Source: an uncultured Pelagibacteraceae bacterium (lineage in GTDB: Bacteria > Pseudomonadota > Alphaproteobacteria > Pelagibacterales > Pelagibacteraceae). Taken from it: a stretch of DNA of 64,000 nucleotides. Positions within the stretch are counted from its first letter, which is position 1; every line of letters starts with the position of its first letter. Location: the NCBI GenBank assembly GCA_902635515.1, contig CACPOD010000002.1:62001-126000 (forward strand), read 5' to 3'. Shown piece after piece: positions 10,408 through 30,748 of this stretch. The position numbers and the translations under genes are program-made. The notes under the pieces were generated by a model. It was not told the origin of the DNA. It was given only the letters and a program-made list of their open reading frames with translations, and made no database searches.

Positions 10408-10527
10408 TTAACTTTTCTTTCTTTTGAAACTTCCCTTGCCTTTTTTTGGTTTTACTATTTTTGATTTATACTTTTTAGTAAATAAATCTTTAGCCATCGG
10501 ATTTTTTTTATTTAATTTGATAACCAT
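10408..10527 (-). CDS. arfA: ArfA-like alternative ribosome-rescue factor (39 aa, below ORF-track limit)
   Basis: This short leftward ORF is absent from the ORF track. It encodes 39 residues, including NPMAKDLFTKKYKSKIVKP followed by KKGKGSFKRKKS. This matches the core of ArfA, where DPLFRQRV-x-KNKKGKGSYMRK is typical, and the short alphaproteobacterial ArfA forms that keep only this core. ArfA binds ribosomes stalled at mRNA ends and recruits release factor 2 as a backup to tmRNA. An internal ATG at codon 11 is an alternative start. The gene start lies inside the last 20 bp of the response-regulator gene in another frame, suggesting translational coupling. The family call rests on eye alignment of a short basic peptide. 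Confidence 0.6.
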   Translation of the reverse strand: MVIKLNKKNPMAKDLFTKKYKSKIVKPKKGKGSFKRKKS

Positions 10528-11071
10528 TTTTTTTACTAATTATAAATTCATTATCATTAAACATATTTAAAATTTTTTTTCTTAACCTATAAATATGTGT
10601 TTCAACAGTATGAGTTTCCATATCAGATTGATAACTCCAAACTTTTTCTTGCAATTCATTAATACTTACAGGTTTATTTGATTTAGATAGGTAAGTGATT
10701 GTATTGATTTCCTTTTCAGTCAACTTAAGTTTTTTATTATTTATTAACATTTCTCTAGAATTTAAATTTATAATATAATTATTTACTTTTACTTCAGACT
10801 GGCTGCTAAATTGTATTTTTAAAAATTCTATGTTTATCTTTTCAACTAATTTAAAAATATTTATTGGTACTTTATCTAAAACAAGTTGATTGCTAATATT
10901 TAAATTTTTTTTATTAGATATAACTAAATAATTATTATAATTGCTTACTTGTTCGTTTAAAGAATTTTCACTATCCACAAAAATAATATTAAAATTAAGA
11001 TCTAATCCAATTTCTTCTAGAATGTGATATAATGAGGTGAACTTATATATTATTAAATTTTGAATACTCAC
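10508..11071 (-). CDS. Winged-helix (OmpR/PhoB-type) regulator with a degenerate receiver domain
   Basis: A 187-residue protein. The C-terminal half (about residue 95 on) is a clear OmpR/PhoB winged helix: INLNSREMLINNKKLKLTEKEINTITYL then THTVETHIYRLRKKI, the recognition-helix region, and IISKKNGYQIK, the wing. The N-terminal half is as long as a shortened receiver but I cannot place the acidic pocket, the phospho-accepting Asp or the switch Lys, so phosphorylation control is unlikely. The start codon is GTG. It is divergent from the L,D-transpeptidase with an 11-bp gap, so it may regulate that gene, and overlaps arfA by 20 bp downstream. No histidine kinase lies in the window. Confidence 0.8.
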   Translation of the reverse strand: MSIQNLIIYKFTSLYHILEEIGLDLNFNIIFVDSENSLNEQVSNYNNYLVISNKKNLNISNQLVLDKVPINIFKLVEKINIEFLKIQFSSQSEVKVNNYIINLNSREMLINNKKLKLTEKEINTITYLSKSNKPVSINELQEKVWSYQSDMETHTVETHIYRLRKKILNMFNDNEFIISKKNGYQIK

Positions 11072-27657: not shown

Positions 27658-28653
27658 TCAGATATTTCTTTCAATTAAGGAAGTTAGTAAATTGATATGA
27701 TCATTGTTATCATTTAAGCAAGGAACCATATCAAAATTTTTTCCTCCTGAATTTAAAAAACTTTCTTTAGCTTGAATTTGTATTTCCTCCAAAGTCTCTA
27801 CGCAATCAGATGCAAAACCTGGACAGATTGTAAGAACATTTTTTACACCCTCTTTAGGCAGACTTTCCAGAGTTTTGTCAGTATATGGCTGAAGCCACTC
27901 TTGCGGACCAAATCTTGACTGAAATGTGGTTTTTATTTTAATTGAACTAAATTTTTCTGAGATAAGTCTTGTCGTTTTATGACAATAACAATGATATGGA
28001 TCACCTTTATCAAAATATTTTTTTGGTATCCCGTGATAAGAAGCTACGATGAGATCTGGTTTCCAACTAATTTCACTTATTTTTTTATTAATCGAATTAA
28101 CAAGCGCATCAATGTAAAGTACATCAGATTCGTAATGAGAAATTATTTTTAAGGAAGGTTGCCACCTCATTTTCATCAAAGTTCTGTATACCTCATCACA
28201 AACTGTTGCTGTTGTAGCTGCTGCGTATTGCGGGTAAAGTGGAAGTATCACTAGATTTTCACAACCCATTTTGTGCAACTTATGAATCTTGCTCTTAATA
28301 CTAGGATTCCCATACCTCATGGCAAAATCTATAAAAACATTTTTATTTGATAGTAAATTGGAAATTTTTTCACTTTGCTTTTTCGTATAATAAAGAAGTG
28401 GAGAAATATTTTCATCTTTCATCCAAATTTCTTTATAAGCTTTTGCAGTTTTAGAAGGTCTAAAATTTAAGATAAACAGATTTAAAATAATTTGCCAAAC
28501 TAAGGGATTTACCTCGATAACTCTTCTGTCAGAAAGAAACTCTTTTAAATATTTTCTTATATCAAACCAACTAGTAGAATCAGGTGTACCAAGATTGATT
28601 ATGAGCACACCTGTATTGCCATATTTTATAGGTGGGTGATTTTTTTCAATCAT
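27658..28653 (-). CDS. hemH: Ferrochelatase
   Basis: A 331-residue HemH. It begins KYGNTGVLIINLGTPDSTSWFDIRKYLKEFLSDRRV, has PLYPQYAAATTAT, the catalytic His region LIVASYHGIPKKYFDKGDPY and the C-terminal FASDCVETLEEI with the conserved Glu residues. It inserts Fe(II) into protoporphyrin IX at the membrane. The YHCYCHKT segment provides extra cysteines but I cannot tell whether they bind a cluster. It overlaps the hemE stop by 4 bp, so translation is coupled. Confidence 0.98.
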   Translation of the reverse strand: MIEKNHPPIKYGNTGVLIINLGTPDSTSWFDIRKYLKEFLSDRRVIEVNPLVWQIILNLFILNFRPSKTAKAYKEIWMKDENISPLLYYTKKQSEKISNLLSNKNVFIDFAMRYGNPSIKSKIHKLHKMGCENLVILPLYPQYAAATTATVCDEVYRTLMKMRWQPSLKIISHYESDVLYIDALVNSINKKISEISWKPDLIVASYHGIPKKYFDKGDPYHCYCHKTTRLISEKFSSIKIKTTFQSRFGPQEWLQPYTDKTLESLPKEGVKNVLTICPGFASDCVETLEEIQIQAKESFLNSGGKNFDMVPCLNDNNDHINLLTSLIERNI

Positions 28654-29654
28654 TTAAAATCTTTTACAATTTTAATTAGGTTTTTAACCATTTCTGGATT
28701 TGTTTCGGGAAGAATACCATGACCAAGATTAAATATATATGGATGATCTCGAAAAATTTCCAAATATTTAGAAGCTTCTTGTTTTAACGTTTCATTATCA
28801 GTTAACAAAATTTTTGGATCTAAACCACCTTGTATAGGTATATTTATATCTCTTAGTATCTTTTTGGGATCAATATTATAGTCGATACTAATAGCATCAG
28901 GTTTAACAATATCACAAAATTCTTTATAATTTTTTATTTCCCTTGGAAAACATATCACTGGCACATTTAAAGATTTTACATAATTTACTAAATTTAAAGT
29001 TGGAGTATAAACATAATTAGGTAACTCTTTTTCTTCTAATAACCCTGCCCAACTATCAAATATTTGGATTATATTTGCACCATTATCTATTTGATTTTTA
29101 ATATGAATTTTTAAAAATTTTTCAATAATTAATAGAACTCTATTTATTAAAAAATCGTCATTAAAAAAATTTTCTTTTAATTTTTTTTTAGGCGATTGTT
29201 GATTAATTATATAAACTAATAATGTCCATGGTGCACCAACAAAGCCTATAGTGTTTTTGTTATTTAGAATAGGGTCTGTACTTACCTTTTTTATTGCTTT
29301 GTATACACGGTGTATTTTTTCTACAAAATCAATTTCATCAATCTTAGTAATGTCGTTTAAATTTAATACTCCTAATTTTGGTCCAAAGTTTTTTTCAAAT
29401 TCTACTCTTTGACCCAAACCATATGGAAGCATTAAGATATCTGAAAATATTATTGCAGCATCTAGATCAAATCTTTTTAATGGTTGTAGAGTTATTTCTG
29501 AAGATAAATCATCATTTAAACACAAATTAATAAAGTTAGGGTTTTCTTTTCTTATTTCTCTAAATTCTGGTAAATATCTGCCAGCCTGTCTCATAATCCA
29601 TATAGGGTTAAACGAAGTGTCTTTATTAATTATTACTTTGTTCAAAGGTTTCAT
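28650..29654 (-). CDS. hemE: Uroporphyrinogen decarboxylase
   Basis: A 334-residue HemE. The N-terminal active-site motif PIWIMRQAGRYLPEFREIR and the later SDILMLPYGLGQRVEF, GFVGAPWTLLVYII and QIFDSWAGLL are all present, and the C-terminus has FNLGHGILPETNPEMV. It converts uroporphyrinogen III to coproporphyrinogen III. It is the first gene leftward of the proposed replication origin, the same position hemE holds at the origins of Caulobacter and Rickettsia. Confidence 0.99.
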   Translation of the reverse strand: MKPLNKVIINKDTSFNPIWIMRQAGRYLPEFREIRKENPNFINLCLNDDLSSEITLQPLKRFDLDAAIIFSDILMLPYGLGQRVEFEKNFGPKLGVLNLNDITKIDEIDFVEKIHRVYKAIKKVSTDPILNNKNTIGFVGAPWTLLVYIINQQSPKKKLKENFFNDDFLINRVLLIIEKFLKIHIKNQIDNGANIIQIFDSWAGLLEEKELPNYVYTPTLNLVNYVKSLNVPVICFPREIKNYKEFCDIVKPDAISIDYNIDPKKILRDINIPIQGGLDPKILLTDNETLKQEASKYLEIFRDHPYIFNLGHGILPETNPEMVKNLIKIVKDFK

Positions 29655-29920
29655 AAATAAGTATTATTAATTATTGTAGTTGTAATATATCTTGTTAATA
29701 AAGGTGATTAATTTTTATAAACATTATATTCACAATTTACCAACATGTTATTTGAATAAAATTGTTTAAAATGAAGCTTTTTTGCCATATTAATTTTTGT
29801 GGATTGTTTTACCCTATTTATTATTAATGTTAATAAATAACAGTTTTTACAAGGTTTATTTAAAAAAATTAAAATTGTGTAATTTAATTAAAATATTACA
29901 AATTTATTAACAATTTATTC
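29655..29920. other. oriC: Probable chromosomal replication origin (oriC) between hemE and ppsR
   Basis: This 266-bp gap is the longest in the window and is extremely A/T-rich. Genes run away from it on both sides for more than 3 kb (leftward for 11 kb), as expected at an origin. The flanks hemE and the RP001/DUF299 gene are those of the known Caulobacter and predicted Rickettsia origins. It holds the 9-mer TGTTAATAA at 29693-29701 and 29828-29836 and inverted at 29904-29912, plus TGTGGATTG at 29798-29806; each differs by two bases from the DnaA box TGTGGATAA. No open frame or RNA gene is seen. DnaA binding is inferred. Confidence 0.75.
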
Positions 29921-30748
29921 ATGAGTAATACATATCAAATATATTTAATTTCAGACTCAACGGGTGAGACCTTAGATAGAATATTTTTAGCTCTGAAGGC
30001 TCAATTTTTAAATATAGAATATAAGGTTCATTCTTACTCTTTTACAAGGACAGAAAATCAAATTTTAAAAATTCTAGAGGACGCAAAAAAAAATGAAAAT
30101 TCAATAATCTTATACACAATTGTGGATAACAACTTAGCCAAATACCTTGCGAATGCGAGCGATAATAAAAATATTCCATGTTTTGGCGTTTTAGGAAATT
30201 TAATTCTAAATTTTTCAAAAATATTAAATCAAAAAGCAACACATGAACCAAGCGGTCAACATATATTAAACGAAGAGTACTATGATAGAATTGAAGCAAT
30301 TCAATTTACAATGAATCATGATGATGGAAATTTAATAAACGAAGTAAATAAATCTGATATTATTCTTGTAGGCGTGAGTAGAACGAGTAAAACACCAACA
30401 TCTATTTACTTAGCCAACAAAGGATTTAAAACGTCAAATATTCCATTAGTAAATGAAAATTCTTTGCCAGACTCCCTTAAAAAAAACCCACAGATGACAT
30501 GTGTTGTAGGATTAAGTACAGAGCCCGAAAGATTAGCTGATTTAAGAAAAAATAGAATGAATTCTTTAAAAGAAACAGAAAATATTGAATATACAGATTT
30601 AGAAAATATTAAAAAAGAAGTCTTAGAGGCAAAAAAAACATTTCAAAAATATAAATGGCCCCTCATAGACGTAACAAGAAAGTCAGTCGAAGAAACAGCG
30701 GCTTCTATAATTAAAATTCACGAAATATATTTAAACAATGTTAAATAA
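29921..30748 (+). CDS. ppsR: PEP synthase / PPDK regulatory kinase-pyrophosphorylase (DUF299, RP001 family)
   Basis: A 275-residue DUF299 protein: it opens QIYLISDSTGETLDRI, and the P-loop-like signature ILVGVSRTSKTPTSIYLANKG is at about residues 147-167, with MTCVVGLSTEPERLADLR downstream. Members phosphorylate and dephosphorylate a threonine of PEP synthase or pyruvate phosphate dikinase using ADP and pyrophosphate; which target applies here is not visible. It is the first rightward gene from the proposed origin, and maf overlaps its end by 11 bp. Confidence 0.92.
   Translation: MSNTYQIYLISDSTGETLDRIFLALKAQFLNIEYKVHSYSFTRTENQILKILEDAKKNENSIILYTIVDNNLAKYLANASDNKNIPCFGVLGNLILNFSKILNQKATHEPSGQHILNEEYYDRIEAIQFTMNHDDGNLINEVNKSDIILVGVSRTSKTPTSIYLANKGFKTSNIPLVNENSLPDSLKKNPQMTCVVGLSTEPERLADLRKNRMNSLKETENIEYTDLENIKKEVLEAKKTFQKYKWPLIDVTRKSVEETAASIIKIHEIYLNNVK

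Follow-up and report, generated by a model that had tools for sequence, protein, structure and literature searches.

A probable A/T-shifted form of the alphaproteobacterial hemE/RP001 replication origin in a SAR11 genome

The 266-bp intergenic gap at 29655-29920 of the window (the whole 64,000-nucleotide stretch analyzed, from an uncultured Pelagibacteraceae bacterium) is, with near certainty, the chromosomal oriC of this SAR11 genome, and it is quite probable that the gap represents an A/T-shifted form of the alphaproteobacterial hemE/RP001 origin, with DnaA boxes that have been moved by mutational drift. The assembly around the window comprises 1.12 Mb in 34 contigs, and the genome is 83% complete. 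The first-pass annotation had proposed a probable oriC from gene order, transcription diverging from the gap and extreme A/T content, and all of these observations held up. Both flanking genes score above the cut-offs of their family models: hemE (uroporphyrinogen decarboxylase, 28650-29654, − strand; TIGR01464, 311.9 bits, cut-off 302.95) on the left and the RP001-type gene (PPDK/PEP-synthase regulator, PRK05339, 29921-30748, + strand; NF003742, 303.6 bits, cut-off 225) on the right, the two being transcribed divergently. The gap between them, which carries no strand assignment, has a G+C content of 16%, as compared with about 26% in the surrounding 2-kb windows. The nearest named matches of the RP001 protein are from Pelagibacteraceae (SAR11) single-cell genomes, with identity up to 99%. 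We identified 128 genomes of the family with an RP001 match (the window's own genome included) and took 90 loci from them; both genes flank the gap in 86 of the 90, and its length (always 255-297 bp) and composition (12-26% G+C) vary little. The remaining 4 loci belong to a single genus, and no hemE was found in the stretches extracted for them. An intergenic position between divergent hemE and COG1806/RP001 genes is also found at most loci across the class. The dnaA gene adjoins dnaN and lies ∼62 kb from the gap in the window's genome, and the other complete genomes compared show a similar distance of about 62-72 kb. The designation of the gap as a probable oriC is thus upheld by its conservation in length and composition across the family, by the densest cluster of the repeated 9-mer and by a switch in skew and gene orientation at this locus in a complete relative, G057.

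The 9-mer TGTTAATAA occurs in the gap at 29693 (+), 29828 (+) and 29904 (−), together with TGTGGATTG at 29798, all at the places first reported for them, but that count overlooked a fourth 9-mer, TTATAAACA at 29715-29723, which has all seven fixed bases. Over the whole genome there is no general enrichment, either of TGTTAATAA (58 copies versus 82 for the reversed control) or of exact TGTGGATAA (6 versus 9 for the control). The 9-mer is nonetheless far denser in the gap than in other intergenic regions: in a comparison set drawn from the window and from sampled parts of two relatives (246 intergenic stretches, 50.9 kb), first to third place fall to the three hemE/RP001 gaps, which contain 8 of the 12 copies of TGTTAATAA. 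Because these three orthologous gaps head the ranking, the concern raised in the first-pass annotation that the 9-mer might be equally dense in other intergenic regions is answered. Among the 86 family gaps, TTATTAACA (the same box as TGTTAATAA, read on the opposite strand) is the most over-represented of all 9-mers, with 113 copies versus 5.0 ± 1.8 in dinucleotide shuffles; these related genomes are non-independent samples, and in 50 non-redundant gaps it is still the top 9-mer (58 versus 2.9 expected). TTATCCACA has only 4 copies in the same 86 gaps. From these sequence comparisons we predict that TGTTAATAA is very likely a DnaA box. Inside the RP001 gene, the window also contains TTATACACA-AT-TGTGGATAA (30110-30129), two good DnaA boxes in inverted orientation that are not conserved in relatives; TTATACACA at 30110 and the perfect TGTGGATAA at 30121 were considered as strong boxes and rejected as coincidence, as they vary at synonymous sites in relatives.

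The boxes have a definite arrangement within the gap. Box 1 (TGTTAATAA, 29693-29701, + strand), proximal to the trio-like tract described below, is the gap's most conserved stretch among 80 near sequences. It reads TGTGAATAA in 78 of 79 near relatives, and the TGTTAATAA of the window is a private G-to-T change at this site, recent, or an assembly error. It is followed by a weak tandem box, box 1b (GGTGATTAA, 29703-29711, + strand), the probable counterpart of a CGGGGAT found class-wide. Next comes an array of boxes on the − strand, TTATAAACA-TT-ATATTCACA-AT-TTACCAACA as read on the + strand (29715-29745), consisting of box 2 (29715-29723, conserved at 0.981), box 2b (29726-29734) and box 2c (29737-29745), each of the latter two lying 11 bp past its predecessor. 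This register is enriched in the family, in which same-strand box-like 9-mers at 11-bp spacing number 71 pairs versus 5.0 in shuffled gaps (maximum 8), and those at 22-bp spacing number 27 versus 4.6. Farther to the right, a weak box that retains GG (TGTGGATTG, 29798-29806, + strand) is present in 69 of 80 near sequences and is unrecognizable as such outside the nearest clade. Box 4 (TGTTAATAA, 29828-29836, + strand) reads the same in 70 of the 80 near sequences, its place being taken by TGTGGATAA, TGTGAATAA or TGTTGATAA in loci L030, L021 and L013, and box 5 (TTATTAACA on the + strand, 29904-29912, − strand) is TGTTAATAA in 57 of 80. A TTATTCATG lies 11 bp beyond box 5 and overlaps into the RP001 start codon. 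Two further conserved blocks are present. The first surrounds TTTAAAATGAAGCTTTT in mid-gap (29763-29785; windows at 29763-29764 score 0.993 in near relatives) and recurs as AATTGAAGCTTATT in other relatives; DnaA boxes do not explain it. The second, (A)AACCCTTATTTTACA, lies just right of box 4 in part of the genus (L015-L018, L021, L030).

It had been suggested at the outset that either A/T drift had reshaped the boxes or the specificity of DnaA had changed. Of these two suggestions, the sequences favor drift as the better explanation, and a change in specificity is disfavored. When TTAT-NN-ACA is corrected for background, the forms with CC, CA, TC and TA are enriched 17-, 25-, 29- and 22-fold, respectively (the CC value being based on 4 sites), as compared with 0.8-fold for TT or AT. 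The similarity of the first four values suggests that DnaA accepts [CT][CA] and that A/T mutation bias sets which form is common. Domain IV of DnaA aligns gaplessly to that of E. coli (1j1v), and the base-contact residues of the 1j1v structure (R399, K415, P423, D433, H434 and T435) are the same in all 30 of the family members compared. Furthermore, the domain IV of both G057 and G031 is identical to that of the window's genome, and their box 1 reads TGTGAATAA and TGTGAATAT (L014, L018). Drift is preferred because the recognition residues are unchanged and because an identical domain IV occurs with either TGTGAATAA or TGTGAATAT at box 1. Since near relatives keep TGTGAATAA at box 1, drift appears to be restrained there. 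Under drift, A/T-ward mutation would have shifted the boxes inside a DnaA-accepted set, TTAT-[CT]-[CA]-ACA, and TGTTAATAA would be a variant of TGTGGATAA that DnaA tolerates, probably with lower affinity.

The alternative that survives best accepts the gap as oriC but holds that DnaA specificity has changed or relaxed in the family, making TTATTAACA the preferred high-affinity site. It would account for the dominance of TTATTAACA and the near absence of TTATCCACA, and for the finding that position 6 takes A as readily as C. The E. coli box consensus is stricter at position 6 than the SAR11 family boxes are, and two substitutions, D427R (29 of 30) and G431N (28 of 30), lie near the recognition helix. 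We nevertheless regard this explanation as quite unlikely, given the constancy of the six contact residues, the comparable enrichment of the CC, CA, TC and TA forms and the pairing of one domain IV with different forms of box 1. Position 6 may have become mildly relaxed, taking A in place of C, with the substitutions at 427 and 431 as candidates. A composite proposal, in which SAR11 DnaA is relaxed or shifted at box positions 5-6 (for instance by the substitutions at 427 and 431), the whole origin is run on TTATTAACA-type boxes and has hardly any consensus site, and the alphaproteobacteria have a 3'-GNT-5' trio with an unfixed middle base, is also unlikely in our estimation. The variants singled out for a comparison of DnaA affinity are TTATCCACA, TTATTCACA and TTATTAACA.

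The hemE side of the gap likely contains an unwinding module, predicted from period-3 T-A-N repeats, a 4-nt spacer and box 1. In the family profile (83 loci), five in-phase T-A-N triplets precede box 1, with T at 365 of 415 and A at 309 of 415 of the respective positions. In the window this DnaA-trio-like tract is degenerate (TTG TAG TTG TAA TAT, 29674-29688, + strand) and is separated from box 1 by the spacer ATCT (29689-29692, + strand), which in the family is 44% G+C (83 loci). Conservation of the tract in 80 near sequences is 0.978, versus 0.897 outside the elements. A profile of trio, spacer and box trained on other genera only has its top score at 29693 among 127,934 window positions, and the same profile places the element first of 798,680 positions in G057; scored alone, the trio tract ranks 14th in the window and is not outstanding. 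In the basal unwinding system (BUS), the DnaA-trios lie beyond a DnaA box and a spacer and read 3'-GAT-5' in the direction leading away from the box (PMC8287927). The SAR11 element resembles that of Bacillus subtilis and others in having a DnaA box, a short G/C-containing spacer, a period-3 tract (3'-NAT-5' away from the box) and a tandem box on the opposite side, but it differs in that the middle or first base of its triplets is often off the 3'-GAT-5' consensus. The BUS criteria call for a box that has ≤2 mismatches to TTATCCACA and lies no more than 16 bp from the trio tract, and for ≥3 consecutive 3'-NAN-5' triplets. Box 1, with its 4-nt spacer and with TTATTAACA at 2 mismatches to TTATCCACA, falls within the first of these limits; the window's tract has only two T-A-N triplets in a row, and because TTG breaks the run, it falls short of the strict rule of three. 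We propose that DnaA, which has an ordinary DNA-binding domain and is the product of a gene about 62 kb distant, would bind to box 1 together with the tandem box beside it, would occupy the weak boxes one helical turn apart, and would extend as a filament onto the T-A-N tract on the hemE side, where the duplex would open for helicase loading.

A counterpart of this trio-spacer-box element may exist across the class. In other alphaproteobacterial families, the hemE side carries a period-3 T-x-G tract, a spacer (e.g., TCCC, TGCC or GTCC), TGTGGATAA or TGTGAATAA, and then CGGGGAT. By an ad hoc score, the best element beats all ten shuffles in 26 of 37 class gaps on this strand; the corresponding count for the opposite strand is 9 of 37. 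We have only moderate confidence in the class-wide counterpart, because the tract reaches the top 2% of its own gap in 11 of 34 cases when anchored on boxes alone. The middle base of the T-x-G tract (L176-L215) is A, T or G, and not the fixed A of the published DnaA-trio rule. Deviant DnaA-trios without a central A have already been suspected in print (PMC8287927), and a class-wide counterpart would make them directly testable.

Skew and gene orientation were determined from sampled stretches of three complete relatives, and they agree with the locus in part. For G057 (20 sampled 20-kb stretches), the largest GC-skew difference was obtained with the origin at 910,000, where the leading-strand coding fraction also peaks at 69.5%; the locus lies at 910,500. 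The best point in G035 is 24 kb from the locus, within sampling resolution, but that in G031 is 214 kb away; the GC-skew check proposed in the first-pass annotation, as run on these samples, fits the locus in two of the genomes and is not decisive in the third. In G057, correcting third-position skew for gene strand leaves a weak signal whose maximum falls at 850-870 kb, closely followed by 880-900 kb, which suggests that the raw skew there partly reflects gene orientation. One might instead suppose that the gap is merely a bidirectional promoter, that its 9-mers are transcription-factor sites and that the origin lies elsewhere. Divergent genes do need both of their promoters here, and some of the conserved bases must serve transcription. 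This explanation is highly improbable, however, when set against the enrichment of the boxes over both shuffles and other intergenic regions, the order of trio, spacer and box (constant across genera and recognizable across the class), the switch at the locus in G057 and the flanking of the mapped Caulobacter origin by the same two genes (PMC1914354).

An A/T-shifted hemE/RP001 origin can be placed among known systems. The hemE and COG1806 genes border the origin mapped in Caulobacter and also the one predicted in Rickettsia (PMC1914354), and the Caulobacter origin has weak DnaA boxes tuned to low affinity (PMC4468827). The SAR11 gap thus resembles Caulobacter crescentus Cori and Rickettsia prowazekii oriC in its flanks, divergent order, A/T-richness, weak boxes and a dnaA located elsewhere (PMC1914354, PMC4468827), but it is shorter (266 bp), contains neither a CtrA nor an IHF consensus site in the window, and has boxes of the TTATTAACA type and not of the TGATCCACA or TTATCCACA types. 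The one-orientation 9-mers 2 bp apart, forming an 11-bp repeat, recall the low-affinity arrays of Escherichia coli oriC (tau2, I and C sites) (PMC6727663), although that origin also has high-affinity R boxes, whereas exact TTATCCACA is scarce in the SAR11 gaps. TTATTAACA itself has been proposed as a DnaA box in the A/T-rich genomes of Mycoplasma hominis, M. arthritidis and M. mobile (PMC2751442); there, in Mollicutes, one or two copies adjoin dnaA, in contrast to the position between hemE and RP001 seen here. The open papers searched contained no description of a SAR11 origin, which may well stand in published supplementary origin tables, and nothing specific on TGTTAATAA with DnaA or on the DnaA contact residues. 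SAR11 ranks among the most abundant groups of bacteria, and a base-level map of its origin would serve peak-to-trough estimates of growth and the design of a replicating SAR11 plasmid. It would also offer a clear case in which the boxes of an origin shift under mutation bias while the known contacts of the initiator stay fixed.

CtrA and IHF sites are present in the Caulobacter and Rickettsia origins and are not universal among hemE/RP001 origins. The possibility that the 9-mers with TTAA serve as CtrA sites (TTAA-N7-TTAA), like those of these two origins, had to be taken as a serious rival because the motif shares the 11-bp period, and it is twofold over-represented in family gaps (44 versus 22), but the idea is scarcely credible in that the motif is absent from the window gap, the control spacings N6 and N8 are likewise raised (37 and 36), 25 of the 44 family-gap matches are in-register DnaA-like boxes, and no Trans_reg_C protein of the window's genome scores above the CtrA model cut-off. 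The window gap also lacks the IHF consensus WATCAANNNNTTR, GANTC, GATC and the E. coli 13-mer. Among family gaps (L010-L097), GANTC is depleted (4 versus 14.3 expected) and the IHF-like consensus is mildly raised (19 versus 7.3). The lack of any CtrA match agrees with the report of Brilli et al. that Pelagibacter is without ctrA (PMC2877005). The Trans_reg_C proteins of the window's genome are PhoB, CreB-like and OmpR-like regulators and one winged-helix protein, and each of four genomes, including three near-complete relatives, has four such proteins. The winged-helix protein (about 190 aa; no receiver domain was clearly matched) is encoded at about 10508-10750 of the window (− strand), 19 kb from oriC, and in all 4 genomes checked (the window's own and relatives L132, L134 and L135) such a protein is encoded no farther than about 20 kb from oriC.
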